A stretch of DNA of 64,000 nucleotides from Sinorhizobium sp. RAC02 (GTDB taxonomy: Bacteria > Pseudomonadota > Alphaproteobacteria > Rhizobiales > Rhizobiaceae): positions 2,294,001 to 2,358,000 of the forward strand of contig NZ_CP016450.1 of the NCBI RefSeq assembly GCF_001713395.1. The letters run 5' to 3'. A model generated the notes under the pieces. That model saw only the letters and a list, made by a program, of their open reading frames with translations, searched no databases and was not told the DNA's origin. This document shows, piece after piece, positions 23,573 to 60,382 of this stretch. A program made the position numbers and the translations under genes. The stretch's first letter is position 1. Each line of letters begins with the position of its first letter.

Positions 23573-23646
23573 TGGGGAATAGTTCAACGGTAGAACGACG
23601 GACTCTGACTCCGTTAATCTTGGTTCGAATCCAGGTTCCCCAGCCA
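23573..23646 (+). tRNA. tRNA-Gln(CTG)
   Basis: The 7-bp acceptor stem pairs TGGGGAA with TTCCCCA. The anticodon arm ACGGA-CTCTGAC-TCCGT carries anticodon CTG, the T-arm GGTTCGAATCC is standard, and CCA is encoded. The 3' part of the gene, from the T-loop on, is the attachment site used by the island that follows; integration leaves the tRNA intact. Confidence 0.95.
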
Positions 23647-23647
23647 A
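23627..23647 (+). repeat. attL core (tRNA-Gln 3' end)
   Basis: These 21 bp are identical to 60362-60382 and cover the T-arm, the acceptor 3' strand and CCA of the tRNA gene. This is the usual crossover region of tyrosine-recombinase islands. Confidence 0.88.
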
Positions 23648-23756: not shown

Positions 23757-23804
23757 GAATTCGGCGCGGTCAAACCTTCAGGCTTGATACAGGGTCTGTT
23801 CGTC

Positions 23805-25889
23805 ATGGCTGTGCGCCACGAGGTCGAGAATCTCACCCGCCGCGGAAACATCTTCTACTGGCGCCCCCGGGTACCGGCCGCTTTCACTCAATGCCAGCCC
23901 GGCAGCCGGCTTTCACTCAGCCTTCATTGTTCCGACCATAAAAAGGCGCAAGTCATCGGCCGCAAGCTCAACACGCGGCTGGCCGAGTTGAAGACGCATT
24001 CGAAGGAACCGATGTCCAAGCAGCAGCTCCAGAAACTTTGCGAACACGAGCGAGACAAGGAACTCGAACGGCTCGAGAAAATCAGCGACGCTGCGAAGCG
24101 CTTCGGGCGGGCTGGCGATGTCGTTGAGATGGAACTCGATCTCGAGGCGGGCTGGGCCTACCAACTTCTTGCCAAGTTCGGAACGCGTGCGGAGCTCAGC
24201 CTCGAGGGCGCTTGCGTCGGCCTGACCTATCTCCTGCGGAACGGTGTTCCAGCCTCGCATGTCGATGCCGTCCGGGCGAACTATCGAAGCGAGCGCAGCA
24301 CGGCTCGCAGCCCCGGGTTCGAGGAGGGCATCAGACGATTGATGTACAACTTTGAAATCGACGACACGGCACTCAATCGCGAACGCGCCATGTCAAAGAT
24401 GTTCGAAGGCCGGGCCGCCGCCCTACTCGACATCGATGAGCGCCACGAGCTTGTCGACAAGAGTCAGAGCGAGTTCACAGGCGGCGGAAGAGCCAATGCG
24501 GCTGCCGCCGTGGTCAGCGCAGGAGACATCAAGGCCGCAGGCCCTGCTCCTGCGCCTGCGGTCGATGAGCGACCCTTGCCGACGGCTCTGATCGCCATTC
24601 CAGAAGAAACGGAAATCACCCAGCTCGATCTGACCCCGCGCCCGGCGGTGACGAAGAAGTCCACCTCGAAAGCTTCTGAGGCCGAGCAACGGGTGGTCGC
24701 CGTTTCCGATTTCGAGCAAGAGTGCGAAAAGCTCATCGCCAACATGGGAGACGAATGGGAGCCAGCGACCGCGCGGGATGTAATGGCGCTGGTGCGGATG
24801 TTTAAATCGGTACTCATCGAGCATGGCGTGGAGCATTCCGGACAGATTGAGCAATTTCACATTGGTCAGTTGCGTCAGCATCTCAACCACATTCCAACCG
24901 ACTGGGGCCGCAGCAGCCGGATGCGCGTGATGTCGGCGCCGGAACTCCGTAATGAGGGAGAAAAGCTACGCCTGGCGGCGGAGGCTTCCGGCACTAAGGC
25001 GAAGGTCGGTCTCGCCGCGGCGACGGTCCGCAAGCACTTCGGAAACCTCAGCCATTTCCTGAAACATCTGAAAGGTCACGGCTTCGAAATCGAGGAATGG
25101 ACCTTCGAGGGCTTGCGCCCCAGAAAGCCCAAGGCTGGCGAGGTCCGTGGCAAACAATTCAAGCCATCCCCGGCGGATATCGCTCCGATTTTTTCCAGCC
25201 CGCTTTATGTTGGTTCGCATGGGCATCTGCGCGGGAAAAGGCGCCAGCCGGGAAAACAAGTCTTCCACGATTCGCTTTATTTTCTGCCGATCCTGTTCAC
25301 CTATCTCGGCCCCCGACGGAAAGAGTTTGCCGGACTTCATGTGAATGACATTGCAAAGGACGGGGACGGCTACGTCATCATCCTTCGTACGAACGGCATT
25401 CGTGGATTGAAGAATGTACAGTCTAAGCGACTACTACCTGTGCCGGAGGAGTTGGTCCGCTTGGGCTTCATCGACTACGTTCAAGCCATCAAGCAGTTGG
25501 GGTACGAGGCACTTTTCCCGGATCTCTTCTCTGACAAGACGGATAACGATCCCGGAGGTCGGTTCTACGACACCTTTGTCCCAATCATGCAGGGAGCGCT
25601 CGGTGAGAATATGTGGGATCGAGCAATTCACGCGCTTCGGCACGGCATGGCCGATACGTTGAAACAGGCGGGTGTGCCGACTGAAGTCATCGACGACATC
25701 TCTGGACGGCTAAGCGAGGGTAGCGAAACCAACACGCGATACACCAACCCAGCAGGCCTTCCGTTGATGCGCAGTGCTCTTAAACATTATCCGGTCATCA
25801 CATCGGGCGTCGAACGACAGCCTCTGCATCTTCTCCCATGGATCGAGAAGAAGCAGCCGCCGCCGTGGGCACGCAAGGGCAAGAAATAG
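23805..25889 (+). CDS. Tyrosine recombinase (integrase) of the island
   Basis: This protein of about 694 residues has an N-terminal DUF6538-like segment (RRGNIFYWRPRVPAAF), a long helical region, a SAM-like core-binding domain near residues 310-440, and a C-terminal catalytic domain. The catalytic set is visible: Arg in GPRRKEFAGL (about 504), HALRHG (H609 and R612) and the Tyr nucleophile in NTRYTNP (about 646). A position next to the tRNA border indicates that it integrates and excises the island. The ATG at 23805 is preferred over a TTG at 23784. It is much longer than phage integrases, as is usual for this island class. Confidence 0.92.
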   Translation: MAVRHEVENLTRRGNIFYWRPRVPAAFTQCQPGSRLSLSLHCSDHKKAQVIGRKLNTRLAELKTHSKEPMSKQQLQKLCEHERDKELERLEKISDAAKRFGRAGDVVEMELDLEAGWAYQLLAKFGTRAELSLEGACVGLTYLLRNGVPASHVDAVRANYRSERSTARSPGFEEGIRRLMYNFEIDDTALNRERAMSKMFEGRAAALLDIDERHELVDKSQSEFTGGGRANAAAAVVSAGDIKAAGPAPAPAVDERPLPTALIAIPEETEITQLDLTPRPAVTKKSTSKASEAEQRVVAVSDFEQECEKLIANMGDEWEPATARDVMALVRMFKSVLIEHGVEHSGQIEQFHIGQLRQHLNHIPTDWGRSSRMRVMSAPELRNEGEKLRLAAEASGTKAKVGLAAATVRKHFGNLSHFLKHLKGHGFEIEEWTFEGLRPRKPKAGEVRGKQFKPSPADIAPIFSSPLYVGSHGHLRGKRRQPGKQVFHDSLYFLPILFTYLGPRRKEFAGLHVNDIAKDGDGYVIILRTNGIRGLKNVQSKRLLPVPEELVRLGFIDYVQAIKQLGYEALFPDLFSDKTDNDPGGRFYDTFVPIMQGALGENMWDRAIHALRHGMADTLKQAGVPTEVIDDISGRLSEGSETNTRYTNPAGLPLMRSALKHYPVITSGVERQPLHLLPWIEKKQPPPWARKGKK

Positions 25890-25932: not shown

Positions 25933-28263
25933 CTAAGCTGCTTCCCAAACCTGATTGAGAATTCGTGCCGCCAGTGCCGCCTTGTCCTGCGGCAGGAAAC
26001 GGCCGTAGTGCTTAGCCACCATGTCAGCCGTATCCTGGATCGCGTAGCTTGCTTGCTCGTATGAGCCGGTCTGCTTCAAGATATGGGTCGCGAGCACATC
26101 CCGCACGTTATGTGGACCATGAGGCAGCAGACCCTTGATCGCCCCTCGGCCGGTATAGGGATTATAGATGCCGTAACGCTGGATGGTCAGCCTCCAGGCC
26201 TCGTAGAAGGTCGTCACGTCATATGCCGCATCGGTGCTAGTCGTCTTGACGGTTTTCACGAAGAACGTTCCTGGATCAGCAACGCCCCTGAGAAGCGTAG
26301 CGCGATGCCGTTCGACATAGTCATCGATATAACGGTAGAGGTCGAGCAGATCCGGTAGAACCAGTCGGAACGGCTTGTCTCCGAAAAATGACGAATGGGC
26401 ATTCTTGAAGGCCACTGCTGGAATCAGCACTTCCCAGCCACCGTCTCGCTCACTCCAACGGATTTCCCCGCGCTTCAGCTTTTCGAGGACACGTTCCGGA
26501 CGCGGCATCTGTCCGCGTGGGCAGAGCATCAATTGCCGAAGATTTTTCTGGCGAAGCCCCAGATGCAATCCCAGCCGCAACATGAGGAACGATCGAACTG
26601 CCTCCGCGGCCGGGCGCGGATAACGCTCTTCGTCCGGCATGAGGCGAATGATCTCCTCGGTGATCTTGCGATACTCGCCAACCGGACTTTCGGCCTCGAG
26701 CACTGGCATGATCGGCTCGAAGGGATCGCGATGGACGCGGGCAATGCGCTGGATCTCCTTTACACGATGAGCGGCGTGCTTGTGGAAATCCTCACACGCA
26801 CCATGCCAATCCTCTCGGGCATAGTCGATTTCGTTTTGCGAGACGAGACCGGGAATGGGCTGAACGCGAGCGAGAAGTTCAGGATGCTGTCGAAGCCATC
26901 CAGTGCCTCCCTTGGTGATCGCCAGCGCTATCCGCAGCATATCGACTTCCCAGGCCGTATAGAAACCGCGACGGCTTTCACGCCATTGCAGATACCAGTC
27001 CCATATGCCCGGGAAGATAAGCAGACCGAATGTCAGGTGGCGGACCGGCACGCCGTACCCCTTGATCTCGCCCGTCCTCGACGCAGCCAAGGCGCCGAAC
27101 ATGAGGCCCAGATGCTCGATCTTCTGAGAAGCCGTCTCCTCGCCCCAGACGCCGTTGCGTTGGAAGCCGATCGACGTGAGGGCCGAGGTTTTGAAGCGGA
27201 CGAGGTCTGCCATTTCTAGGGCCAATGCGGGCGGTGCATCCACGACGCCCGACAGGAGATCGGGATCCTCGATCCATGTCTCCTCATAGTTTGCCGGCAC
27301 CGCGATCTTGCCGTCTCGCGGTGCACGTCCGCCATAGGACACGCCCGGGAAGCGGATGGCGTAACGCTGCTTGGCTGCGGCCGCCTGGAATTTTCTGTAA
27401 TCCGTTGAGCCGCTGATGATTACACGACGCACCCAATCCAGGATCTCCTGGCGCTTGGCAAATGGCAGAGCATTGAAGTCGTCCGGGAGATGCCAGGCGA
27501 TCCTTCGACGTTCAGCCGGATCGAGTTCCGACAGATTGAAACCGGACGCTGACCGTGACTGATGCGGAAGTTTCGCCTTGAAGTATCCGTCGGGAAGGCG
27601 GTAGCGGCGCTCGATCCGCCCGAGCACTTCAAAGCTGTCGGTGCTGCGAGGCACGCGCCGTCCTTCGATCCAGCTCAGCAGTGTGTTTTTGTCCATAGCC
27701 TCATCGGAGCGGACGACGGAACGATGGAGGACCCAATAGGTTTCGCCATGCCGCCGCATATGAAGCTGGAGCGCCTCAGCGAAACCGGAAGGATCGGTCC
27801 ATTCCCGGAACAAGGGTTCCGGAAACTCGATGATGTCCGCCGGCTTTCGTTTCGGGAGATCGTCCCGAGGCCGCGCGTTGTCTGCTGCGACAGTTCCCGG
27901 ACGAGCCTTCGGCTGATCGGCCAAAGCCGCCTTCTTGTTGTTCGCGATAGATTTCCGCGAACCGGGTGGCGCATCTTTCCCGGCGTCGCCATCCCTGCTC
28001 CATCGAATGATGGCATCAAAGGCCGGATCGATTGCACGGTGATGTACGGCGAGCATCGCCGCATCCACGCCAGTCAGCCGGGCAACCACATCCCAATCCG
28101 TGTGACCTCCGGTTCGCTGCGGACCACAACGTCGCTCGATGAGACGCCGCATATAGGCATTGAGGGCGTCGGCATCGTTGGTCGAGAAGATTGGGGACAG
28201 TCGCATCGCGCAATAGGCGTCGATCTTGCGCTGGAAGGCTTTCTTTGCGGTAAGTTTCGTCAT
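25933..28263 (-). CDS. Second large tyrosine-recombinase-like protein
   Basis: This 776-residue protein has no N-terminal resemblance to the island integrase, but its C-terminus carries tyrosine-recombinase features: Arg in LRLGLHLGLRQKNLR (about residue 590), HNVRDVLATH (H718 and R721) and KHYGRFLP (Tyr about 753). Residues 1-150 include a helical region and a low-complexity basic linker. It could catalyse an accessory recombination, or the strand exchange of an internal module. It lies downstream of a small co-oriented gene (28502-28819). Three-recombinase RIT elements come to mind, but a third recombinase is absent. Confidence 0.8.
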   Translation of the reverse strand: MTKLTAKKAFQRKIDAYCAMRLSPIFSTNDADALNAYMRRLIERRCGPQRTGGHTDWDVVARLTGVDAAMLAVHHRAIDPAFDAIIRWSRDGDAGKDAPPGSRKSIANNKKAALADQPKARPGTVAADNARPRDDLPKRKPADIIEFPEPLFREWTDPSGFAEALQLHMRRHGETYWVLHRSVVRSDEAMDKNTLLSWIEGRRVPRSTDSFEVLGRIERRYRLPDGYFKAKLPHQSRSASGFNLSELDPAERRRIAWHLPDDFNALPFAKRQEILDWVRRVIISGSTDYRKFQAAAAKQRYAIRFPGVSYGGRAPRDGKIAVPANYEETWIEDPDLLSGVVDAPPALALEMADLVRFKTSALTSIGFQRNGVWGEETASQKIEHLGLMFGALAASRTGEIKGYGVPVRHLTFGLLIFPGIWDWYLQWRESRRGFYTAWEVDMLRIALAITKGGTGWLRQHPELLARVQPIPGLVSQNEIDYAREDWHGACEDFHKHAAHRVKEIQRIARVHRDPFEPIMPVLEAESPVGEYRKITEEIIRLMPDEERYPRPAAEAVRSFLMLRLGLHLGLRQKNLRQLMLCPRGQMPRPERVLEKLKRGEIRWSERDGGWEVLIPAVAFKNAHSSFFGDKPFRLVLPDLLDLYRYIDDYVERHRATLLRGVADPGTFFVKTVKTTSTDAAYDVTTFYEAWRLTIQRYGIYNPYTGRGAIKGLLPHGPHNVRDVLATHILKQTGSYEQASYAIQDTADMVAKHYGRFLPQDKAALAARILNQVWEAA

Positions 28264-28501
28264 TTCACTTCATGCTCGTTGTTACTGGGCCCCTCAGTTC
28301 CAGGGGGCGGTCGAGCTAAGCGAAGCGCGTTAATGAAGCGTTGGAGCCCACGGCACACTCTGGAAATTCGATTCAGAATCGAACGGCGTTTTACGAAGTA
28401 ATGGGTGGAGAACACGTGAAATGGACAAACGCCGTTAGGCGCTGAGCGGTACCAGCAACAAGGAAGACCGGAACCGAAGGTGGTCCGAAATGAATGACCG
28501 C

Positions 28502-28819
28502 TCAAGCATCCTGATCGACACCGTCGGGATAGAGGAGGTGAAGCTTCCGGCGGAACGGAAGGCCACCGGACCGGTACTTCGAGACGAGATCGTCGAAGAC
28601 CCTATCGCATTCGCCCTCATCGAAGCCTTGATCGCTCAGCATAGACACGATCACGTCCTGGAATTTCCCGAGTTCAGCCTCCTGGCCTTTATCGACCGCC
28701 CTGCGGATGAGCCAGTAAAGGGCCACCCTCGCGAGATCATCCCGCTCAGGCCGACGGGCACTCCTGTTCGCATCACGAAGCGCCTTCTGCCGCTGCCTTG
28801 CCGCTTTTACATTCATCAT
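28502..28819 (-). CDS. Small basic protein paired with the second recombinase
   Basis: This protein of about 105 residues is not recognised. It begins MMNVKAARQRQKALRDANRS (start ATG at 28819 behind GGGAGGG) and has a strongly basic N-terminus followed by a helical domain. It precedes the recombinase gene on the same strand with a 238-bp gap, so it may be its accessory or regulatory partner. The region upstream holds two 22-bp direct repeats that could be its operators. A role as a recombination directionality or DNA-bending factor is speculation from position and charge. Confidence 0.6.
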   Translation of the reverse strand: MMNVKAARQRQKALRDANRSARRPERDDLARVALYWLIRRAVDKGQEAELGKFQDVIVSMLSDQGFDEGECDRVFDDLVSKYRSGGLPFRRKLHLLYPDGVDQDA

Positions 28820-28930
28820 TCGCCCTCCCATTCCTCGGCCTCCCCAATGGTCAGGGGACCGGCCGACCGGCGCAAGCGCCGTTTGGCAGAATCGAAAATA
28901 TCGAACCGGGAATCGGCAGCTCAGAGATTT

Positions 28931-28952
28931 GAATCAAAAGAGCGCAATTTGT
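28931..28952. repeat. 22-bp direct repeat, copy 1
   Basis: The sequence beginning GAATCAAAAGAGCGC is identical at 29057-29078, with similar bases following both copies. The two units lie 126 bp apart upstream of the small gene/recombinase unit, so they may be operator or protein-binding sites. Confidence 0.6.
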
Positions 28953-29056
28953 TTCACGTTGCGGGCACGTTGCCTTGCATCAATACAGGTTGACCCGCAG
29001 CAAACGGCGTTGCTGAATCATTCGGTTTGAGTTCTGAATCAAAAATCCCGAACTCG

Positions 29057-29078
29057 GAATCAAAAGAGCGCAATTTGT
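29057..29078. repeat. 22-bp direct repeat, copy 2
   Basis: This is an exact copy of 28931-28952. It lies between the stop of the DUF429-like gene and the start of the small gene, in a 300-bp gap that otherwise holds no gene. Confidence 0.6.
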
Positions 29079-29091
29079 CTCAGGTCCTGAA

Positions 29092-29127
29092 GACGTGAGG
29101 TACGTTGCCGACAACCTGCCTCACGTC
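29092..29127. terminator. Inverted repeat after the DUF429-like gene
   Basis: GACGTGAGG (29092-29100) pairs with CCTCACGTC (29119-29127), with an inner GTTG/CAAC pair in the loop. It lies 9 bases past the stop at 29136. There is no T-run, so a terminator role is only possible. Confidence 0.35.
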
Positions 29128-29135
29128 ATCTCGGG

Positions 29136-30074
29136 TTACCGTGCATCATTGCGATGATGACCGAGGATCCAACCCTCCCATCTGCGCACCCCATCGATAT
29201 CCGGAACGCCCTCGTCGCGCCGCCCGTCGACGACGTCGAGCATACCGAGCAGGCCGACGGCTGCATCAAAACGGTCTTCACCGGCTTTATCCGCGCCGAA
29301 CCCATCTTCGATCATCGGCAATAAAGCATGAGCGTCGATATCCGGCCGTGCCTCAAGCCAAGGTATCATCATCTTCGCTATCCGCTGGCGGTCTGCCTGC
29401 CGCCGCTTGCTCCAGCCGCCGCGGGGCATGCCGAGCTGTCGGTAGACGTCACCGGGATAAGTCTCAGCGATGACGCATGGCCTCGTGTCGAGGAGATCGG
29501 CCAGTCGACCGTCGAATGGCCAGAGGCCGATGTCATCCAGCCGGGGGACGATCATCTCGCGCCACCCGGTGATGGCACCCTTTCCGACCTGATTGCCGCC
29601 GAGCGTCCAGAACAGCATGCAGGCGGCCTGCCTATCCGGGGTCGCGCGTTCGCACAGACGCAGAAGCGCGTGCGGATCGGTTACGCCGAGAGCATCGAAG
29701 AGATGCGCGCGTTGGGTGCCGCCCGGCCGCGCCGGATAGAACGGGCGGTGGAGGGAGATACGGCTACGGTGGTCGGCAACGCTATACCAGTCCGACCAGA
29801 TACCCGATCCGAACGAGGCAAGGGCTTCACGAAACGAGCCAAGCTCGGTAGCGCGCGCGTAGGCCATCGGAAGACCGATCGGTAAATCGAAGCCGAGGAG
29901 CAGAGCGCCTTTGTCCACCGATCTGGCCTTCATCCGGTCAATCAGGGTCGACGTGTCGCCCACCAGCTCTGGTGCATGGACCTGCCAGCGCAGGCCGTCC
30001 CGGATGGTGACCGACATCCAGCGCTTCTTCCTGTCCATGCTCCAGTCGCAATGCGCGACGACAGCGACATTCAT
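29136..30074 (-). CDS. DUF429-like protein with RNase H fold (putative nuclease)
   Basis: This 312-residue protein resembles DUF429-type predicted nucleases: an initial strand VAVVAHCDWSMDRKKRWMSV (Asp about 10), LLLGFDLPIGLP (Asp about 63), AETYPGDVYRQLG (Glu about 207) and EDRFDAAVGLLGM (Asp about 270). These fit an RNase H-like acidic metal site. It is the last gene of the row that starts at 36118, about 36 bases after the protease gene. In that context it could be a nuclease effector or a substrate-processing subunit. Family assignment is from motif order, and catalysis is unproven. Confidence 0.65.
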   Translation of the reverse strand: MNVAVVAHCDWSMDRKKRWMSVTIRDGLRWQVHAPELVGDTSTLIDRMKARSVDKGALLLGFDLPIGLPMAYARATELGSFREALASFGSGIWSDWYSVADHRSRISLHRPFYPARPGGTQRAHLFDALGVTDPHALLRLCERATPDRQAACMLFWTLGGNQVGKGAITGWREMIVPRLDDIGLWPFDGRLADLLDTRPCVIAETYPGDVYRQLGMPRGGWSKRRQADRQRIAKMMIPWLEARPDIDAHALLPMIEDGFGADKAGEDRFDAAVGLLGMLDVVDGRRDEGVPDIDGVRRWEGWILGHHRNDAR

Positions 30075-30109
30075 ACCTTGCTCCCCATCACGATGCGCAC
30101 CGAAGGCTA

Positions 30110-30877
30110 TCAGCTTCCACCGGCACGATCACTGTCTTTGAGGAGCCGCTTCACGGCCACTCCGTCAAGCGCCTGGGCATCGAACAGCGCCTTCACCAAA
30201 GCATCAAGTCCGTCCCGGTTTTCGTTCAGAACCTCGACGGCCCGTGCGAGCGCCTTATCAAGCCTCGCATGGATGCGAGCCGACAGATCCGGATTGCCAT
30301 CGAGCACGGCGGTCGGATCTTTGTCGTCGCGGTAGAGCAGCGGCTGGATGGCGCCGAAGCCGAGGCTGCGCTCCATGGCGAGCGCCAGCCTTGTTGCCCG
30401 CGCCAGATCGCTGTCGTCGGTGCCGCCAGATCCGGCAGACACGCTCCCGACGACAATCTGCTCGGCGGCCCTCCCCGCCATCAGCATTGCCAGCATGTCC
30501 TCCCGATAGCCGAGGGTATCGCTGCCGGATGCAGTGAAGCCAAGCTGGCTATAGCCACCACCGCCAGGCGTATCGATGTTGAGGCCGTGGATTGGACCGA
30601 GCCGGAGAGCGTTGTGAACGACCGCATGGCCGGACTCGTGGATCGCAAAACGCCAGCGCAAATCATATGGCACCTGAGGACGGTCCATCCGGATGCCCTC
30701 CTCGATGTCTTCGTAACGGATCGACCGCTTCTGCCGGCGCGCTTTCAACCGCGCTTGCCGAACGATCCGCTCGATGTCGGCGCCTGTCATGCCCATGGCG
30801 CGGGTCGCGAGTTTGTTCAAAGCTGCCTGAACTGCTTCGGGCGTCACTGGTTCAAGGCGCGTGGATGTGATGGTCAA
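30110..30877 (-). CDS. AAA lid plus M41 (FtsH-type) zinc peptidase, detached from its ATPase
   Basis: Residues 15-65 (MGMTGADIERIVRQARLKAR) look like the small lid domain of an FtsH-type AAA+ module. From about residue 75 there is an M41 metallopeptidase with the zinc motif AIHESGHAVV (HESGH, residues 80-84) and a later Asp ligand in DDSDLARATRLALAME. In ordinary FtsH the AAA+ core, lid and protease are one chain. Here the chain is broken between core and lid: the start overlaps the stop of the ATPase gene by 4 bases (ATGA). The two products should work as one protease complex. No membrane helix is seen. Confidence 0.82.
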   Translation of the reverse strand: MTITSTRLEPVTPEAVQAALNKLATRAMGMTGADIERIVRQARLKARRQKRSIRYEDIEEGIRMDRPQVPYDLRWRFAIHESGHAVVHNALRLGPIHGLNIDTPGGGGYSQLGFTASGSDTLGYREDMLAMLMAGRAAEQIVVGSVSAGSGGTDDSDLARATRLALAMERSLGFGAIQPLLYRDDKDPTAVLDGNPDLSARIHARLDKALARAVEVLNENRDGLDALVKALFDAQALDGVAVKRLLKDSDRAGGS

Positions 30878-32835
30878 TTCGCTGCTCCTTTCCGAGCTTT
30901 TCCGGAACCCTGTTCGCCGCTGTCTTCGCTGGCCTGTCCGTTAAAGGCCGATGGCTCATCCGTCATGCCGATGAGTTCGGGATTGCCCTCCTCCACCGCG
31001 GCGCTGACTGCGTTCTTGTCCCTAACCAGGGCCGCAACATCATCGCCCAGATGATAGGCGAAGATCTCCGCGAGCGTCGCGACATCAGGCAAGGGGATTT
31101 CGATATGCGTCTCAAGTCTCCCAGAGCGCTTGATCGCGTCATCGATCTGGTCCGGCCTGTTCGTGGCACCGACGATGACCAGCCCCTCGCTCTTCACGGC
31201 ACCATCGAGCAGTTCGAGCGCCTTGTTGACGAGCGTATTCCAATAGTCGGCGTACTCCTGTTCCGCTGGCTGCCGTTTGCCGATGCCGTCGATCTCGTCG
31301 ATAAACAGGATCGACGGCGCCAACGCACGCGCCTCCGCAAACGTCTTGGCCATCTTGTCGATGACATCATTGAGATGCCCGCCCTGAAGCCAGGTGGAAA
31401 CGGAGGTGACGACCAGCGGAACCTGCAAGGAGTTGCACAGCGCGCGGGCGAAGGTCGTCTTGCCGGTCCCCGGCGCGCCGTAGAGCAGAAGTTTGGTGCT
31501 CATGTCCGCCCAGGCCAGCGAGCCTGCCCGGTAGTCGACGAGATCTACTTTCAGATCCAGTGCCCAGGTCTTGGCCTTGCCGTAGCCGGAGAGCGTTTCG
31601 ACCGTCAGTGACGGGCGACCGGATGCATCGGTCTTATCCAGCGGCTCCGGCTGAATGACCTCGGCGCCCGATGGCTTGTCACGCTTCCACCCACCGCCGC
31701 CGTCCTTTCCGGACGAGGTCTTCTCTGACGATGCCGCATCCTTCTTCGACTTCGATGGCTTGCCGGCGTCGGTCGTAGCCGGATCGGCTTCGCCATCATC
31801 GCCGTCCCGGGCCGCAATGCGATTGCGCTCGGTGAGCGACGCCACCACCGCGATCACCTCATGGGCGCTCCGCCCCGGTCGGAACGCCAGCACGACGTCG
31901 TCGATGGTCAGGTAGTGGGCATCGTAGGCATTTGACCACTGCTCGAGAGCGGCGATGCCAGCAGTGCCATGCATCACTTCCACCATCGTACTGATGAAGG
32001 CATAATCCAGCCAGCCTGTGGAGAGATTGATATCGGCGGCAAGGGTGATCTCCGACGGAATGCACTCCGACTTCTCCGAGATGGCCACAACGGGATAATC
32101 CCGCGTCAGGGCATTCACCAACCGCCGCTGCAGCGCCGCCCCGCCGATGCGCCGGACATTGTCTCCGATGAACTGGATATAGGTCCGTCCCGCTCCTTCG
32201 GACGCTACAAAAGACCCGTCGTCATAGACATAGTCACCATCGATCCCATTCGGCGCACCCCCAGGGATAAAGCCGACCACCTCGATCAGCCGCCGCATGG
32301 CCTGCTCGAAGCCTGCCATCGGCGCATGCAGCGACACGACGGGCGCCGACATGGCGGCAGCACGCACAATCTTGGCAAAGGGCACGGGGCCATTCTCGAT
32401 CGCACGGGCAAGCACGAGGGCGGCGACGATGTTGCTGACCAAGGGCGCCCTCCCTGCCCGGCCGACCAAGCTAACCGCGTAAGCGCGGCGAGCATGATCA
32501 GTGGCAGAGATAGATTCACCGCCTCCGGCCTGCGTCCCTCCAGACGGAAACGGCGAGACGAACGCATGAGGTCTGCCTTCGGTCACGACGATATCAGACG
32601 GCTGAGGCGGCGGCAGAAGATAGCCGCCAAAATTCCGGCGCAGCCATGCCAGGTCGCGATCACGATCTCCGGACAGACGAGACGTATCGAAGACCGGTGC
32701 GTAGCGCCGCAGCAGATGCCCGCTGACGTCAACGATCTTCATGTGCAGCAGACCATTGCGATGGCCATTGCGCTGCGCCTCACGACGGGCGATGCGCTCG
32801 AGGCGGCGAATGAGGAGACGCGACAGCTTATTCAT
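30874..32835 (-). CDS. AAA+ ATPase, FtsH/CDC48-like core without protease domain
   Basis: This 653-residue protein starts at the ATG at 32835. The AAA+ core is C-terminal: Walker A YGAPGTGKT (residues 452-460), Walker B SILFIDEIDG (508-517), sensor region VIVGATNRPDQ and SGRLETH arginine-finger area. Residues 345-400 are a Lys/Ser/Asp-rich linker. Residues 1-340 form a large domain with no recognised relative, so it is probably a substrate- or target-recognition part. The lid and peptidase are encoded by the overlapping next gene. No transmembrane segment is seen, unlike housekeeping FtsH, pointing to a soluble unfoldase-protease. Confidence 0.85.
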   Translation of the reverse strand: MNKLSRLLIRRLERIARREAQRNGHRNGLLHMKIVDVSGHLLRRYAPVFDTSRLSGDRDRDLAWLRRNFGGYLLPPPQPSDIVVTEGRPHAFVSPFPSGGTQAGGGESISATDHARRAYAVSLVGRAGRAPLVSNIVAALVLARAIENGPVPFAKIVRAAAMSAPVVSLHAPMAGFEQAMRRLIEVVGFIPGGAPNGIDGDYVYDDGSFVASEGAGRTYIQFIGDNVRRIGGAALQRRLVNALTRDYPVVAISEKSECIPSEITLAADINLSTGWLDYAFISTMVEVMHGTAGIAALEQWSNAYDAHYLTIDDVVLAFRPGRSAHEVIAVVASLTERNRIAARDGDDGEADPATTDAGKPSKSKKDAASSEKTSSGKDGGGGWKRDKPSGAEVIQPEPLDKTDASGRPSLTVETLSGYGKAKTWALDLKVDLVDYRAGSLAWADMSTKLLLYGAPGTGKTTFARALCNSLQVPLVVTSVSTWLQGGHLNDVIDKMAKTFAEARALAPSILFIDEIDGIGKRQPAEQEYADYWNTLVNKALELLDGAVKSEGLVIVGATNRPDQIDDAIKRSGRLETHIEIPLPDVATLAEIFAYHLGDDVAALVRDKNAVSAAVEEGNPELIGMTDEPSAFNGQASEDSGEQGSGKARKGAAN

Positions 32836-33331
32836 CGATCCTACCCTCCGTCGTCGCGGCAATAATTGCCGTTTTGAGATCGGGCGACGGGGTCTTCGTC
32901 GGCTTGCGCCGCTTCAAGCTGCCCGGCCCTGCCTGGCGGCGCTCCCGGATCATACGGCGACCGAAGCGAGGCTTGGTCGAATGCGGCTTGGCCGGATCCG
33001 GCTGAGATGAGGCAACAAGATCGCGGTTGCGCCCGGCAAGCCAGTCGAGCAACAGGCGGCAGGCCGGATTACCGTGATCGGCATGCGCCCGTAGTCGGCC
33101 GATGATCGCATCCGGCACAATGCCGGTAAGGCAGTCGCCCTGCCGGACGTGACCGAGTGCCAATCCGATCAGGGCAGCCGGGTCGTCGGCAAGCGGACGG
33201 CCAAGACCGGATCCGGGATAGTGGAAGATAGTCCCATGCGAACGATGGCAGGCGAGGTTTGATGAGGCAGCGGACGAGATCGCCTCGCAACGGATGCGCG
33301 GCGGCACATCCGGATGGGTGTCAGAAGTCAT
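32828..33331 (-). CDS. Small basic protein of the split-FtsH gene set
   Basis: This is a 167-residue protein with no recognised family. Residues 35-105 are helical and include a Cys/His-containing stretch (ASSNLACHRSHGTIFH). The C-terminal third is strongly basic and low complexity (RRMIRERRQAGPGSLKRRKP), suggesting nucleic-acid binding. It starts at the ATG at 33331 behind AAGGAG and overlaps the ATPase start by 8 bases, so it is translationally coupled and probably acts with it. It follows the PD-(D/E)XK gene by about 150 bases. Confidence 0.6.
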   Translation of the reverse strand: MTSDTHPDVPPRIRCEAISSAASSNLACHRSHGTIFHYPGSGLGRPLADDPAALIGLALGHVRQGDCLTGIVPDAIIGRLRAHADHGNPACRLLLDWLAGRNRDLVASSQPDPAKPHSTKPRFGRRMIRERRQAGPGSLKRRKPTKTPSPDLKTAIIAATTEGRIDE

Positions 33332-33478
33332 GACGGCTCCTTGGCCGAACCGCTTTAGGTCCGGCGCCAATGAGATGAAGGAAGGATGAGGAGCCACGGC
33401 CTCTGGCCATGGCGGTCAACGTCCGATGCCTGACGGCGAGCGTCAGGGCACGGCGTTCAAATCATCATGGCACTTGGA

Positions 33479-34615
33479 TCAATGCGCCGCCGGACGGCGG
33501 GCATAGCCGACGCGGAAGAAGACCGGTGTGGGCGCGTCATCCTCGATCTCATCGCACGGGCCGACATCGGCGCCCAGATCATCACAAGTGCGATCATCAC
33601 GAGCGAGATCGCCCTCACCCAAGCGGGCAGCCTGGTCTTCCTCGAAGGTGCGGCCTGGACCGTTGAGATTGATCCGCGAGGGCATGGGAGCTGGCGAACG
33701 TCCGACCACGTCGGCCGCAACGGTCATGGCCCGCTCGTTCACCCCGATCGCCCTGCGCGCCTCGACTTCGAGAAGCTGCTGCACACGACGACCGAAGCGC
33801 CGACGCAGTTCTGCCATGCAGGCCGCGACACCATCGATCTCCAGAAGGTCGTCGATCTCAGAAAGAGCCCAGACACCACTGGCATGATCGCTTGGACGGC
33901 TGGCGCCATCGACGATCGCCACTTCGACCGTGTCGACCATCAACCGCTTCTGGTTCTTGTAAAGCCAGTCCGGCAGAACCATCGCTCCTGCCATCATCTT
34001 CATCTTCAGCTCTTCGAGGCGGCTCGTATCGCCATAGGACGCCAACGACCGCTTGAGGTCCAAGATGTAGGCCGTGTGACGCGCGCGGTTCACAACGATC
34101 AGGTCGGGGGTATAGCTGCCTTTCGCCGGCGCCTCGCAATCGAGCTTGATGCCGTCAAGGCTCGACCAGTCGTGTCCGGAGACGGCTTCCATCGCCGCCT
34201 TCACGAGCGGCAGCTTCAAGGACTGGGTCAGGACGAGGATGTTCGGGTTGGCCTTGGCCAGGCGGTCGACCGCCTGTTCCAAAAGCTTGCCTTCCCGGAA
34301 TGAGACCGCGCGGACAAGCGAGGCGATATTGACGTAATGGCCGAGGATCTCGTCTTCGGTTGGTTCGCCATCCATGATGGCGGCAATGGCGCGATCGATC
34401 AGCAGATCGAGATCGGCCTCGACATCGGCGAAGCGAACGAGATGCGGATGACGGCGCAGGACCGCAGGCTCGTGGACTGAAGCCACAGCCTGAACTGCGT
34501 TACGGCCAAAGGCGAACAGCCGCGGGCGGGATGCGGCAGCCGCGGCGGCTTCGCTGGTGTTGATGATAGAACGGAGAACTTCCCCATAGGGAACAGAAGC
34601 GGTATTCGTGCTCAT
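33479..34615 (-). CDS. PD-(D/E)XK nuclease-like protein
   Basis: This 378-residue protein carries a clear PD-(D/E)XK catalytic site: Glu in REGKLLEQAV (about 108), YTPDLIVV (P170-D171) and AYILDLKRS (D186, K188), each on the expected strand, with a following helix (LEELKMKMMAGAMVL). Residues 1-100 are helical. It is the likely DNA-cleaving subunit of the split-FtsH gene set. The C-terminal 70 residues are acidic and probably disordered. The start at 34615 is supported by GGAAT. A hairpin upstream (34877-34895) may separate it from the first gene of the set. Confidence 0.72.
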   Translation of the reverse strand: MSTNTASVPYGEVLRSIINTSEAAAAAASRPRLFAFGRNAVQAVASVHEPAVLRRHPHLVRFADVEADLDLLIDRAIAAIMDGEPTEDEILGHYVNIASLVRAVSFREGKLLEQAVDRLAKANPNILVLTQSLKLPLVKAAMEAVSGHDWSSLDGIKLDCEAPAKGSYTPDLIVVNRARHTAYILDLKRSLASYGDTSRLEELKMKMMAGAMVLPDWLYKNQKRLMVDTVEVAIVDGASRPSDHASGVWALSEIDDLLEIDGVAACMAELRRRFGRRVQQLLEVEARRAIGVNERAMTVAADVVGRSPAPMPSRINLNGPGRTFEEDQAARLGEGDLARDDRTCDDLGADVGPCDEIEDDAPTPVFFRVGYARRPAAH

Positions 34616-34936
34616 AGCCCGATTCCTTCTTGTACAAGGTTGACGGTCAGGCCCTTGTCGATGTTGGTAGCATCGGCTTGGGCCGTCTTGTTCCAGACAT
34701 CCGGAACGTCCGCAACCTGACAGGACCCGAGGTCGGGCTCAAGGACCCCAAAGCAAAAAAGAGAACGAAGCCGGTACAAGGTTAACACCGGGCTCACAGT
34801 TCCCTGGCTGGAAGCGATCGAAAATTGCGGATCGTATTTCGTTGCCGCAGATTCTGGCTGGATCCGGAAATGAGAAAGGGCCGACGAGCGGCCCTCTCGA
34901 ACTCGATGGCAAGACCGGTAGTCCGGCCTTCCAACT
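34616..34936. other. Gene-free gap with terminator-like hairpin
   Basis: About 320 bases without a convincing coding frame lie between the DUF3102-like gene and the PD-(D/E)XK gene. The hairpin at 34877-34895 lies here, and the string GTACAAGGTT occurs twice (near 34632 and 34774), so it may hold a separate promoter with repeated operator sites for the nuclease gene. Confidence 0.4.
34877..34895 (-). terminator. Hairpin after the DUF3102-like gene
   Basis: AGGGCCG and CGGCCCT form a 7-bp stem with a 5-base loop. The minus strand continues TTTCTC, a plausible terminator about 40 bases past the stop at 34937. Confidence 0.55.
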
Positions 34937-36118
34937 TTAAGCCGTGGCGGATGGTGGCGAGGTCGGCTTTGCCTTGGCCTGGAACGCCGGACGCTCGACA
35001 CGCTTGGTGGTCTTGGCCAGCGCTTCCGTCAACGTGTGGATCGATTCCTCCTCCGTCTTCTCAGGCATCGACAAGTCGACCGTAGCGACGATGCCAAAGG
35101 CCGCCGCCATCGACGTCACCGCGTCTTCGATCGATGGCGCTCCGGCTGCGGCCGGCGTCGAAGCCTCGGGCGTTTCGACCATCACTGTCTCGGTTACGGG
35201 AACCGCGAGGGCAGCCGCCTTCGCATCCGGCCAGCTCGGCCCGGCCTTTTTCGAGGTCGCCCAGTCGAGCAAGGGGACGACCTCGGTTTCCAGCCAAGTC
35301 CGAAGTTCGGCTTTGTCAGGCCACGTCGTATCGCTACCCATCTTGTAGAGCATGGCGCTGACCGCAGCCCAGTTGGATCCGGACGGCAGCCGAGTGGTAT
35401 CAATAACGAACGCAGCCCTAGAGTTGGGAATTACGAACTGCACAAGACTTTCGAGTTCCTTCTGCGCAAGTCGTGCCGTCAGGTGCGTCTTTTCGGCAAG
35501 GGACTTTTTGACGATGTTCTTTTTCGGCAACGCTTCAGCCACGTGGCCGCGAATCTCCTCAAGGTGCGCAACGAACGACTTCAAGCCATCGCGGACCTTG
35601 ATAGCGATGATCGCCTTGAGCCCGTCGAGCCCACCGGCATCGTAGGGATCAACTTCCGGCATCTCATCGACGTCCGACTTCGACCTGGCGATGATGGCCG
35701 TGACATCCTGAACCCGCAGCCGATCGTGGGTGGTGGCAAAGCCGATGATCTGTTCGACCTGCGCCGGCGTGGCGCCGCTCATCTTTCCAAGCACGGTCGG
35801 GCCAACAGCAAGCGCCACAAGGATGGGCTTATAGGCACTCAGGTTGCGGTAAACCGCACGCCGCGTCCGGACGTGCCGCGCCGTGTAGCCGCAGCATTCG
35901 ACCGCCCATTTCTCCACGGTACCTTCCGGGAGGAGCAAAGCGATCCTTTCGAGACGCTCCCCGGATTCGAAGGCCTCTTCCGTCGATCTGCGCTGCGCAC
36001 CGATGAGGAGCTTGGCCTCATCCTCAAGCAGGATCTTCAACTCCTCGCCGATCGCGTTCTCTTCATAGAAGGGGCGGGCGGCAGAGGCAAAAGCGGATGC
36101 TTTATTGATGTTCTTCAC
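34937..36118 (-). CDS. DUF3102/ParB-like helical protein, first gene of the split-FtsH set
   Basis: This 393-residue protein starts with GTG behind AGGAGA. Residues 45-100 (GERLERIALLLPEGTVEKW, then CCGYTARHVRTRRAVYRNLS) resemble the helix-turn-helix region of DUF3102 proteins, which are often encoded by plasmids and islands. Residues 180-300 are mostly helical, and the tail from about 310 is Ala/Pro/Thr-rich and probably disordered. It may be the DNA-binding regulator or sensor of the downstream genes. Family assignment is tentative. It is divergent from the HNH gene at 36459. Confidence 0.55.
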   Translation of the reverse strand: MKNINKASAFASAARPFYEENAIGEELKILLEDEAKLLIGAQRRSTEEAFESGERLERIALLLPEGTVEKWAVECCGYTARHVRTRRAVYRNLSAYKPILVALAVGPTVLGKMSGATPAQVEQIIGFATTHDRLRVQDVTAIIARSKSDVDEMPEVDPYDAGGLDGLKAIIAIKVRDGLKSFVAHLEEIRGHVAEALPKKNIVKKSLAEKTHLTARLAQKELESLVQFVIPNSRAAFVIDTTRLPSGSNWAAVSAMLYKMGSDTTWPDKAELRTWLETEVVPLLDWATSKKAGPSWPDAKAAALAVPVTETVMVETPEASTPAAAGAPSIEDAVTSMAAAFGIVATVDLSMPEKTEEESIHTLTEALAKTTKRVERPAFQAKAKPTSPPSATA

Positions 36119-36458: not shown

Positions 36459-37394
36459 ATGGCAAAGGCAGTTCTGACGACAAAGATCGATCCGACCTAT
36501 GACGATCTGCCCGAGCAGCGGTATCATTTCCCGCGGACCTATTTGCGTCAGATCGAGGCCGCGCGGAGAGACTGGATCGTCTATTACGAGCCACGGCGGC
36601 CCAGCGGTGATCTAATGAAGACGGGTGGCAAGCAGGCTTATTTCGCGACGGCCAGGATCTCCGACATCATCGAGGATCCCTCAAAGGCCGACCACTTCTA
36701 TGCGCTGATCGAGGACTTTCTGCAGTTCGACCACGCCGTGCCGTTCAAGGAGGCTGATCACTATTATGAGAGCGGCCTGCGCAAGGAGGACGGCTCAACG
36801 AACAAGGGCGCCTTCGGGCGCGCCGTCCGCAACATCCCGGATGAAGAATACGACCTGATCCTCGCCGCCGGCTTCGCGCATGTGCTTGGTCGACGAGACC
36901 GCGAGCGACCGGCGCCCGATCCGGCCGAGGAGGCGCGTCTTGGGTTTGGTGACAATCCGCAGATGCCCTACGAGGTCGACAGCATAGACCGACGGATCGT
37001 CTCCCACGTGCTACAGCGCCCCTTCCGGGACCGAGCGTTTTCTGTGGCGATCAAGGCGGCCTACCAGGACACCTGCGCCGTAACCGGCCTCAAGCTGTTC
37101 AATGGCGGCGGGCGCTCGGAAGTGCAAGCCGCCCATATTCGTCCGGTCGCAGATCGCGGGCCGGATAGCATTCGCAACGGCCTCGCCCTTTCCGGCACCG
37201 TGCACTGGATGTTCGACCGCGGCCTGATTTCGGTCGATGACGATTACAGCCTGCTAATCGCTGACAGCGGTGTGCCCAATACCATCACGCGGCTCATTAA
37301 TCCTGAGCGACGTCTGCTTGTGCCGACACGCGCGGACGAGCGGCCGCATTCGCAATTTCTGCAATATCACCGCATGCAGGTGTTCAAGGGGTGA
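36459..37394 (+). CDS. HNH endonuclease domain protein
   Basis: This 311-residue protein has a C-terminal HNH_2-type nuclease near residues 205-260 (DTCAVTGLKL, then EVQAAHIRPVADRGPD and NGLALSGTVHWMFDRGL). The metal-binding His pair and Asn are in place. Residues 1-180 form an N-terminal domain of the kind found in stand-alone restriction-like proteins; it may recognise modified DNA. It is convergent with hsdR, separated by only 27 bases that hold the island palindrome. No partner methyltransferase adjoins, so modification-dependent cutting is inferred. Confidence 0.82.
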   Translation: MAKAVLTTKIDPTYDDLPEQRYHFPRTYLRQIEAARRDWIVYYEPRRPSGDLMKTGGKQAYFATARISDIIEDPSKADHFYALIEDFLQFDHAVPFKEADHYYESGLRKEDGSTNKGAFGRAVRNIPDEEYDLILAAGFAHVLGRRDRERPAPDPAEEARLGFGDNPQMPYEVDSIDRRIVSHVLQRPFRDRAFSVAIKAAYQDTCAVTGLKLFNGGGRSEVQAAHIRPVADRGPDSIRNGLALSGTVHWMFDRGLISVDDDYSLLIADSGVPNTITRLINPERRLLVPTRADERPHSQFLQYHRMQVFKG

Positions 37395-40617: not shown

Positions 40618-42225
40618 TCAGCTCCCCTCGCCATTTTGCGGCGAAGGCCGCGCGGCCGCGAAAAAATCGTATCCCGGCTTTCCCTTGCCGTCAAAATTCA
40701 GATTGTTAGTCTTGCGATATTCGGCCTCGAATATGTCAACGAGCTCATTTGCAAGGCGATTGGCCGAACTGCCGGCTCCGAGAAGGCCTAGCTGGCGTGA
40801 CAAGCCCTTCTTCACGTTTGCTTTAGTTGTTTCCTTCAGTACCCAGTCGACGCTTTCCAGCTTCGCATAGTTTTGAATGATCTTCTTTGCCCATTCTTCG
40901 ACGTCAATATCTGCATCTATCAATGCGGCCTGGTCAGAGATCGCACGTGCGACCTGCTCTCCCAAACTGGTGCCAGCAGCCGCTTGCGACGTCCGCTCTG
41001 CCTCTTGCGAGGAACTCTCGGCCCGCTCCGCGCTTCGTGTAGCCTTAACTTCAGCTTCCGCAATACGTCTTTCCTCAATGGCCGCTCTTTGCTCGTCCTT
41101 GTCCTCCTGGATTTTTCGAAGGAGCCAGTCGTTGCAATATTGAGCCGCACCGAAGGGGTCAGGGAAAAGGCTGCCGTGGTGAATGTTCATTTTCCGCAGC
41201 ATTGCCAGGCACTCCGTGCGCCGGACATTGGGGATGTGAATCTTGCAGATAAACGGAGCCATTTTCCTGGCAATTTCATTGGCCGGAAATTCGAACCCAT
41301 CGTCGGGCGTCGGAAGATCCTCGAAGCCGTCGAAATCAATCGCCGTGTTTTCTTGGAGCGAGTTGATGATGTAGGATTCAAAATTCTCGCTGCCCGACGG
41401 GGTCAACGTGAAGAGCCCTGCCTGATTGACCAGTCTTGAGTTGTCGTTCGACCTTGGCTCAATGAACAACTCCGGGAGGGCTCCCTTGAGACGTGTCATA
41501 TCGAGGCAGAAAATCGATCTGCTATCGTTCTGAACGTTTTCGGGATCTGCTTCGGCAAATGTGAAGTAAAGAGAAACAAAGGGCGATTTCGACCAGTCGA
41601 GCAGAGGTGTTGCAAGGCCGACATGTTGGCCGTAAGCCCACACATCCTCATCGTTCATCGATGTAAGATCCGGCCCCCGGCCACGCATCGCAAGACGGAA
41701 ATAGGTCAGCAGTTCATCCCGTTCTTCGTCGGGTATACGTCCGTCCGAGAATTGTCGCGTCAGCGTGGACGCCAATGGCCAGTCATAACCGCGCTGGCCA
41801 CGATAGATGACTTCGTGCCTTGCCCTGTTCTGGCCGGGGTCTCGCATGACCTCTACAAAATGGTCCCAGCCCAGAACGCGACACGTCGGCAGCAGGCCGT
41901 CGATGGTGTTGTTTGGCGCCGCGAAATCAGGCCAGACGGGAAGTGAGAGATGATATGGACGGTTCCTAACTGCAACAGTTCGCCAATCCTCCAGAAATGG
42001 CAGAAGTCGCGCTTTGGTTGGAGCAGGATTTTTCTTTCTTCGCTTCAACTCTTTCGCCACGAACACGGAAAGATCGTCAAGTTTCGCATCTCCATCCAAC
42101 AGATACTTGGGGTGATCTCCCAGCGCCGCCACGATGGTTTCCAGATCACCCCCGGCGATTTGCACGAGCCCCTCTGGAGCGCACTTGATAAGATATTCTG
42201 CTATGCCGTGGCGTAGATCACTCAT
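40618..42225 (-). CDS. FRG-domain protein embedded in the type I restriction operon
   Basis: This 535-residue protein has an FRG domain at about residues 120-220 ([19 protein letters not shown], then [20 protein letters not shown] and [10 protein letters not shown]). The C-terminal third is a charged coiled coil ([20 protein letters not shown]). The FRG family is of unknown biochemistry and is often found in defence loci. It overlaps hsdS by 4 bases and is followed by hsdR after one base, so it is translated as an integral part of the system and may be an anti-phage effector or a guard of the enzyme. Confidence 0.8.
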
Positions 42226-50529: not shown

Positions 50530-50661
50530 CTCTAAATTTTCATCGCTAACAGAAAGAAGCTTCCGCCGGGAGTCAATGATCAGTCGATGTGTCGGGTATC
50601 GCCGCCTTGGTAATCGTTGCCGCTAAGTTCTCTAACGTTGTTGGCAAAGGTGAGTTGGACC

Positions 50662-51138
50662 ATGCTCAGTGGGTTTTGGGCGCCTGAGGGCCAACTGAAG
50701 CGTTCAAAGCGGGTTTTCATTGTGCACGGCCACGACGACAACATGAAGCTCTCCGTTTCTAACTTTCTGATGGCCATCGGTCTGGAGCCAGTCATTCTGG
50801 CTGACCAGGTGAATGCCGGGAAAACGATCATTGAAAAGTTCGAACGAAATGCTGATGTCGGCTACGCCGTCGTCCTGCTTTCGCCCGATGACTACAGCCC
50901 CGAGGGGGGTGATGGACGCGCGCGCCAGAACGTCATACTCGAGTGGGGCTACTTTATCGGTAGACTCGGCCGGTCGCATGTCTGCGCGCTGAAGCGCGGT
51001 CATGTCGAGTTGCCGTCGGACATCATCGGGATGGTCTGGGAGAACTTCGACGAATACGGCGGCTGGAGGACACGTCTGGTCAAGGAGTTGATCGAGGCGG
51101 GGGTCGCGGTCGACGAGCACAAAGCGCGAATGGCATGA
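50662..51138 (+). CDS. TIR-like nucleotide-binding protein
   Basis: This protein of about 158 residues begins at the ATG at 50662 behind AAAGGTGAG. KRVFIVHGHDDNMKLSVSNF (about residue 15-34) and the GYAVVLLSPDDY strand with RARQNVILEWGYFIGRLGRS (about residue 90-109, Glu in the catalytic-type position) match the predicted nucleotide-binding TIR-like family PF10137. Members act as NADases or cyclic-nucleotide-activated effectors in defence. No cyclase is nearby. It is divergent from mcrB and precedes the DUF2971 gene by about 100 bases on the same strand. Confidence 0.8.
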   Translation: MLSGFWAPEGQLKRSKRVFIVHGHDDNMKLSVSNFLMAIGLEPVILADQVNAGKTIIEKFERNADVGYAVVLLSPDDYSPEGGDGRARQNVILEWGYFIGRLGRSHVCALKRGHVELPSDIIGMVWENFDEYGGWRTRLVKELIEAGVAVDEHKARMA

Positions 51139-52335: not shown

Positions 52336-52550
52336 GAAGGCGCGAAGCGGCCATCCGCGCGGCGACCGCGGGAACGTAAACTTCAGCCCGAAAGCGGAAA
52401 TTATTTCCGTTTCAGACCCGTATTGACTGATGCCCAAAGCCAGGGCACAAGGATGGCATCCACGGTCGCTCGCGATGGGAAAACAGAGGGAATTTCAAGG
52501 CTTTTCTTCTAAGCTATTGAAATAGTGTGAGAATCCAGGTGACCCAGGCA
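52336..52550. repeat. Internal copy of the island right end (relic attachment site)
   Basis: About 215 bases are nearly identical to 60166-60382. They include the palindrome (52395-52409), the 13-bp arm site CTGATGCCCAAAG (52427-52439) and a core-like end GAATCCAGGTGACCCAGGCA (52531-52550) that differs from the real attachment core at three positions. This is the expected trace of an earlier right end left behind after a later insertion or fusion of two elements. Confidence 0.8.
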
Positions 52551-52861
52551 AGAGATTTTGCCACCTATTGCCTCCATTATAGAGTTGTCATTCCCGAACA
52601 GAAATCGTGGCGTCTTTTCAGCCACTTGGCTCGAGTTCCCGTCAATTGGAGTATGACGTTTTCCCTATCCCAGAGATGCTTCGCGCTGTCAAAATAACGG
52701 CTGGGGACCCTGTTCTAGTGCTTCAAACAGTCTGTGACGACCGACGGCTTTGGGGCCGTTTCTGTCCGACAGGTTCGCGCCAGGAACAGGGCCAGAGCGG
52801 ACGTTCGAACCCTCGACCCTTCGAAGTAAACGAGATGCGCTGGATCGGCTTAAATGGGCCG
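52551..52861. other. Gene-free gap
   Basis: About 310 bases lie between the relic end and the stop of the HEPN-like gene. I see no coding frame or clear repeat here; a frame running on into 53695 on the plus strand is only the antisense shadow of the HEPN-like gene. Confidence 0.5.
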
Positions 52862-60165: not shown

Positions 60166-60382
60166 GAAGGCGCGAAGCGGCCATCCGCGCGGCGACCGCG
60201 GGAACGTAAGCTTCAGCCCGAAAGCGGAAATTATTTCCGCTTCACACCCCGTATTGACTGATGCCCAAAGCCAGGGCACAAAGGTGGCATCCACGGTCGC
60301 TCGCGATGGGAAAACAGAGGGAATTTCAGGGCTTTTCTGCTAAACCTCTGAATTCATGTGAGAATCCAGGTTCCCCAGCCAA
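60166..60382. repeat. Right end of the island (intact copy of the 215-bp repeat)
   Basis: This is nearly identical to 52336-52550. It holds a 21-bp perfect dyad around the palindrome CGGAAATTATTTCCG (60225-60239), the 13-bp arm site CTGATGCCCAAAG (60258-60270) and, at its end, the 21-bp attachment core. The tRNA-like tail matches tRNA-Gln exactly. Confidence 0.82.
60362..60382 (+). repeat. attR core
   Basis: This is an exact 21-bp copy of 23627-23647, the 3' end of tRNA-Gln. It defines the right border; the next bases (ACACTT) are not tRNA-like. Confidence 0.88.

Follow-up and report, generated by a model that had tools for sequence, protein, structure and literature searches.

The window analyzed here, a stretch of 64,000 nucleotides from the 6.6-Mb genome of Sinorhizobium sp. 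RAC02 (NZ_CP016450.1, positions 2,294,001 to 2,358,000), contains a gene cassette in which an FtsH-type AAA+ zinc protease is divided between two chains, D and E, and is encoded next to a PD-(D/E)XK nuclease-like protein, B. In most of the tRNA-Gln islands sampled from the family marked by the integrase J, the cassette makes up the constant part on the integrase side, and it recurs near other tRNA genes and beside plasmid replication genes. It is best described as a backbone module of mobile elements for which an anti-phage action is possible, and about even confidence is placed in the more specific proposal that it is a protease-gated nuclease module serving the persistence or competition of its element. 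An earlier note on this DNA (the original prediction) had proposed the set as a candidate stand-alone defence system; its six genes are called A to F, from 36118 downward, and G is a small gene at 28502-28831.

The two chains of the protease

All six predicted open reading frames are present on the minus strand, and the central genes overlap as had been noted, C (32828-33331, reading frame open to 33397) and D sharing 8 bases, D and E 4 bases. D (30874-32835, open to 32862) has an AAA+ ATPase core (Pfam AAA, E 2.2e-30) without a protease and an N-terminal region of about 390 residues, and E (30110-30877, TTG start) carries the remaining AAA lid (AAA_lid_3, 1.8e-6) and an M41 zinc protease (Peptidase_M41, 8.1e-16) with HExGH and SDLxxAT motifs. 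The NCBIfam FtsH model TIGR01241 breaks between the two chains near position 350, D covering 198-346 and E 353-595, with 95.6 and 73.5 bits respectively, below the 600-bit cut-off. The FtsH family signature is present, with Walker A and B in the AAA+ core and the M41 HExxH with its third Asp ligand, and the catalytic motifs of both chains are retained across the split loci compared; dN/dS values were 0.09-0.40. Separate chains for the ATPase and the M41 protease are confirmed by this division of domains, by the overlapping genes, and by their recurrence in other loci, and the absence of a membrane-like segment in D (top 19-residue hydropathy 1.41, on a crude scale) agrees with the proposal of an FtsH-type pair without a membrane anchor.

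Among the best 80 of 476 relatives in an M41 alignment scan of genome contigs, the split form was found at loci L005, L010-L025 and L028, plus the window's own L001 and L004. The match to D extends into the N-terminal region in the split loci except L004, L005 and L013, where D ends with the locus. The other loci among these matches read as single-chain, apart from L029, at which D was not found, and L040, which was labelled split in the tree and is read as two adjacent genes wrongly paired. A tree with 73 rows groups all 34 genuine split loci in a single clade (support 100) within a fused alphaproteobacterial FtsH-like family, far from the housekeeping FtsH of the same genome. Left out of the tree were short pieces (L013, L096, L153), seven duplicate loci, fused rows of fewer than 500 residues, and another 25 distantly related single-chain proteins, whose removal brought 98 rows down to 73.

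In 33 of 36 split-pair loci, several of which are near copies (L162, L163, L171), a start codon for E falls within the last bases of D, giving an overlap of 4 bases at 23 loci and of 8 bases at 10. Relative to D, the reading frame of E is not the same for the two overlap lengths, a difference that favors coupled translation of two chains. An artefactual split, in which a sequencing frameshift or programmed frameshifting yields one FtsH-like chain, was considered since fused relatives occur, some of them beside B. Recurrence of the split in dozens of separately sequenced loci within one clade, together with a difference in frame that one frameshift mechanism does not account for, largely refutes a frameshift or assembly error, and this alternative was rejected as having almost no remaining likelihood.

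The N-terminal region of D was also evaluated as a degenerate AAA domain, and comparison of profiles with D's own AAA core gave nothing; some p97, Rix7 and Cdc48 rows do align to the region from about residue 133. To find the small-domain helices and the protease of an AAA+ protease on a different chain from its ATPase core is an unusual arrangement that lends itself to experiment, and with the D/E pair one could examine how far a break within the AAA+ module is compatible with ring assembly and unfolding.

Nuclease-like B and the companion genes

The Pfam scan gave no match for A, B, C, F, G or H (the last a second recombinase-like protein) at E up to 1, and A, B, G and F had no credible match by sequence to solved structures. 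B (33479-34615) was instead classed as PD-(D/E)XK nuclease-like from its catalytic columns, E...PD...(D/E)xK, which are kept in 22/22, 22/22, 21/22 and 22/22 sequences; its match in fold to EcoO109I and R2 endonucleases is modest. The sole exception is a fused-type relative, L050, which belongs to the B profile itself, its profile score thus not being independent; the catalytic residues are kept in split loci. The predicted pairing of a split FtsH with a putative PD-(D/E)XK nuclease is supported.

Of 397 genomes of the order, 15 gave a match to the B profile, and D/E adjoins B in 9 of these; in the 6 with weaker matches (L155-L158, L184, L185) no D/E was found beside B in the fetched stretch, and a strict search for the B motif had no match in L155-L159. 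At L155 (6826-10335) a distant B relative adjoins a 771-residue AAA protein without M41; pairing of B with AAA ATPases of other kinds is possible. A fused FtsH-like protein and a B relative stand side by side at L050, L152, L154 and L159. In B relatives beside fused D-E (L152, L153, L154, L050), Ser replaces the second catalytic Asp (S-V-K), and activity might be lost or altered; because the split loci keep the site, this leaves the odds of the readings unchanged. A gene at the B position in L020 (7033-7956) and L023 (6967-7953) has weak similarity to the B profile (hhalign probability 81, 163 columns), lacks the catalytic residues by eye, and might represent a B that has decayed or taken on another use. 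A phage origin of B was not supported by tblastn, which gave no match in 50,697 phage records and one locus in viral contigs.

B-C-D-E form a conserved operon, usually with A and G, and the set recurs in the same order in several genera, more than expected by chance, in keeping with the original prediction. Its description of A (34937-36118) as DUF3102-like stands in part: two of four A-family proteins scanned fall just short of the Pfam cut-off for DUF3102 (6.8e-5, 2.2e-4), and the window's own A has no match to it in the Pfam scan. C is small and basic (isoelectric point, pI, 10.1). Its assignment to DUF6634 was discarded, as hhalign shows no similarity for window-type C and none of 21 C members has a credible Pfam match; DUF6634 genes do lie between B and fused D-E at L154 (8229-8750) and near G on a Tardiphaga plasmid (L092, 11587-11922).

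Two assignments of membership had to be revised. F (29136-30074), read earlier as having an RNase H-type fold and with relatives annotated DUF429, was counted in the set; its patchy occurrence, sometimes as a remnant, makes it accessory rather than core. G (minus strand, 109 residues, pI 9.2), earlier assigned with H to a possible mover, instead accompanies the cassette even where J and H are not detected. It is present in 17 of 18 loci of the cassette comparison and in all 11 plasmid records carrying B (about 9 and 22 kb away in two of them), and also occurs without B in 9 of 15 G-carrying genomes of the order. A and G are adjacent but apart from B-E in L022 and L025, and without B-E within 19 kb in L183. 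A match of G to a designed repeat protein (4.6e-4) is probably due to chance, and a second, diverged G gene (51%) lies deeper in the G475 island (L251, 19479-19769). H (25933-28263, minus strand), judged a tyrosine recombinase by eye alone, accompanies J also in L233, which is without the cassette.

A constant island end and plasmid copies

The island (23627-60382) has perfect 21-bp direct repeats of the 3' end of a tRNA-Gln (CTG) gene (23573-23646, plus strand, located with ARAGORN) at its borders, attL at 23627-23647 and attR at 60362-60382. A further copy of the repeat with 3 mismatches at 52531-52551 is perhaps a relic of an older or composite insertion. J (23784-25889, plus strand), with a DUF6538 N-terminus and a weak Phage_integrase match, serves as the island family marker, and is followed in order by H, G, F, E, D, C, B, A and an HNH_2 protein (36459-37394, plus strand) that is common to several other islands and marks the outer edge of the constant end. 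The HNH protein is divergent from A and resembles phosphorothioate-dependent restriction enzymes (77 of 180 bits). Beyond it lies variable defence cargo (37422-60111).

J was found in 31 of 297 genomes of the family at E <= 1e-80, and tRNA-Gln (CTG) in 14 of 15 scanned J regions (19 fetched), the scan finding none at L233. Sixteen genomes had J at about 60% identity or more, and with four not counted for a partial J or a J at a contig end, the cassette is present in 9 of 12 (G000, G516, G295, G622, G475, G678, G575, G435, G406), although G435 has D as two fragments and yielded no A or B. It is absent from G449 and G446, and from G496 except for G alone. For J of lower identity, L238 has the cassette and L241 has A, B and G up to the contig end, while L240, L242 and L243 have no cassette. 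The closest island, of 50 kb in G516, shares ten backbone genes with the window at 77-97% identity and none of 15 cargo genes of the window. At L238, beside HNH, just residues 782-1085 of HsdR are found, 98% identical, with the other backbone genes at 41-62%, a pattern expected when cargo swaps next to a fixed end. The proposal that the set is itself interchangeable defence cargo is not supported, as it forms a constant integrase-proximal end, past which the defence genes vary from one island to the next.

The cassette also occurs near other tRNA-targeting integrases. Fourteen further cassette loci were scanned outside the tRNA-Gln (CTG) group, revealing tRNA-Ser near L017, L022 and L149, tRNA-Gln (TTG) near L023, L024 and L166, tRNA-Met near L028 and L163, and no tRNA near L011, L014, L015, L021, L025 and L161. 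Among plasmids, 7 of 11 records have rep genes no more than about 8 kb from the cassette, with repABC adjoining, a figure that overstates independence as the copies on the NT-25, NT-26 and TCK plasmids seem closely related; two records (NZ_CP131131, NZ_CP069303) have no usable annotation at the cassette. On several plasmids, pTH2a among them, the cassette and repA are divergently oriented and 0.9-1.7 kb apart. WGR-domain genes lie near the plasmid copies L090, L091, L094 and L096.

This placement raises the prospect that the cassette handles the DNA of its own element, D/E remodeling or degrading integrase, Rep or partition complexes, B processing DNA, and A and G binding it. Proximity to repA and to the island integrase, the basic character of G and C, and the A-G pairs found apart from B-E would all be in keeping with such a role. 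On the other hand, J islands exist without the cassette (L233, L236), and four kinds of tRNA site plus a plasmid replicon make a single common integrase or Rep substrate unlikely, so that this explanation is viewed as improbable and ranks below the defence explanation considered next. Whatever its action, the same nuclease-protease set in defence-bearing islands and beside plasmid replication genes would provide a handle on island retention and movement, which are usually approached via cargo alone.

Defence neighbourhood, mechanism and known systems

The setting among defence genes was correctly recognized in the original prediction. From the HNH side the cargo comprises a type I restriction-modification (R-M) operon with an FRG-domain gene (40618-42225) between HsdR and HsdS, DUF4917 (PDC-S21), McrBC, an adjoining CAP12/Pycsar-type TIR domain gene (50617-51138; PF10137, 9e-36), PDC-S31, HerA-SIR2, and a SIR2 protein with weak similarity to ThsA. 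In 23 cassette genomes, 17 strong HsdM matches (E < 1e-30) were found, of which 4 (window, L011, L021, L028) lie within 8 kb of the cassette, where about 0.1 would be expected under uniform placement at about 5.5 Mb per genome, HsdM having been picked after its sighting in the window. For a fifth match (G423), no tie to the cassette contig was established.

These findings, and the patchy distribution of B and D/E over the order, favor the earlier view of stand-alone anti-phage defence, in which D senses infection and proteolysis frees the nuclease B. Against it, the cassette stays fixed beside integrase or rep genes while neighboring defence genes turn over, and PADLOC models (E up to 1) match none of A, B, C, E, F, G or H, and D by generic AAA similarity only. 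Moreover, defence families also turned up in a control set of 129 proteins, out of 186 candidates, taken from the flanks of fused relatives, so that neighbourhood is weak evidence for defence; this set and its counterpart for split loci (130 proteins out of 157 candidates) do not give counts per locus and were not used for a test. Recurrence only with housekeeping or plasmid-maintenance genes, which had been named in advance as telling against defence, is nearly what the plasmid records with repABC display, but R-M genes near the cassette in at least 4 of 23 genomes break the exclusivity. It appears that the cassette can travel in defence-rich DNA, a defence role of its own not thereby being demonstrated, and stand-alone defence is considered unlikely, if slightly less so than handling of the element's own DNA; both overlap with the preferred reading of a protease-gated nuclease module.

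In that module, D and E would co-assemble into a soluble AAA+ protease ring, with the substrate chosen by the N-terminal region of D, perhaps with A, C or G. Unfolding or degradation of the substrate, for example an inhibitor of B, would switch the nuclease on or off, B being the effector and C, A or G substrates, adaptors or DNA-binding parts. The outcome might be persistence of the element against competing elements or phages, or punishment of its loss. Regulated proteolysis acting on a nuclease, as earlier proposed, is a plausible hypothesis. More tentatively, and short of even confidence, the cassette may represent an undescribed class of backbone module, common to islands at several tRNA sites and to repABC plasmids, whose nuclease would be controlled by an AAA+ zinc protease divided within its own ATPase module, and which would serve the element in competition or persistence as defence cargo turns over next to it.

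The component families are known; in a literature search of open-licence papers, no description of the two-chain architecture or of the module was found. Compared with FtsH and m-AAA proteases, D/E form two chains cut within the lid, with no membrane segment found. The fused alphaproteobacterial FtsH-like loci have the same B-AAA-M41 combination, and differ in their single chain, in a B with an altered catalytic residue, and in having other or no A, C and G. B has catalytic residues (in split loci) like those of EcoO109I and R2 endonucleases, with the modest match in fold, and is without detectable sequence similarity to solved PD-(D/E)XK structures. Typical antitoxins of type II toxin-antitoxin systems are acidic, unlike the basic C. 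In IetAS, the AAA+ ATPase IetA acts with a separate protease, IetS, of the serine type. The cassette likewise has an AAA+ ATPase and a protease on separate chains near defence genes, and D matches IetA models (6.5e-20), but with 69.8 bits against a 510-bit cut-off (NF042959); E is an M41 zinc enzyme, and the cassette adds the nuclease-like B together with A and G.

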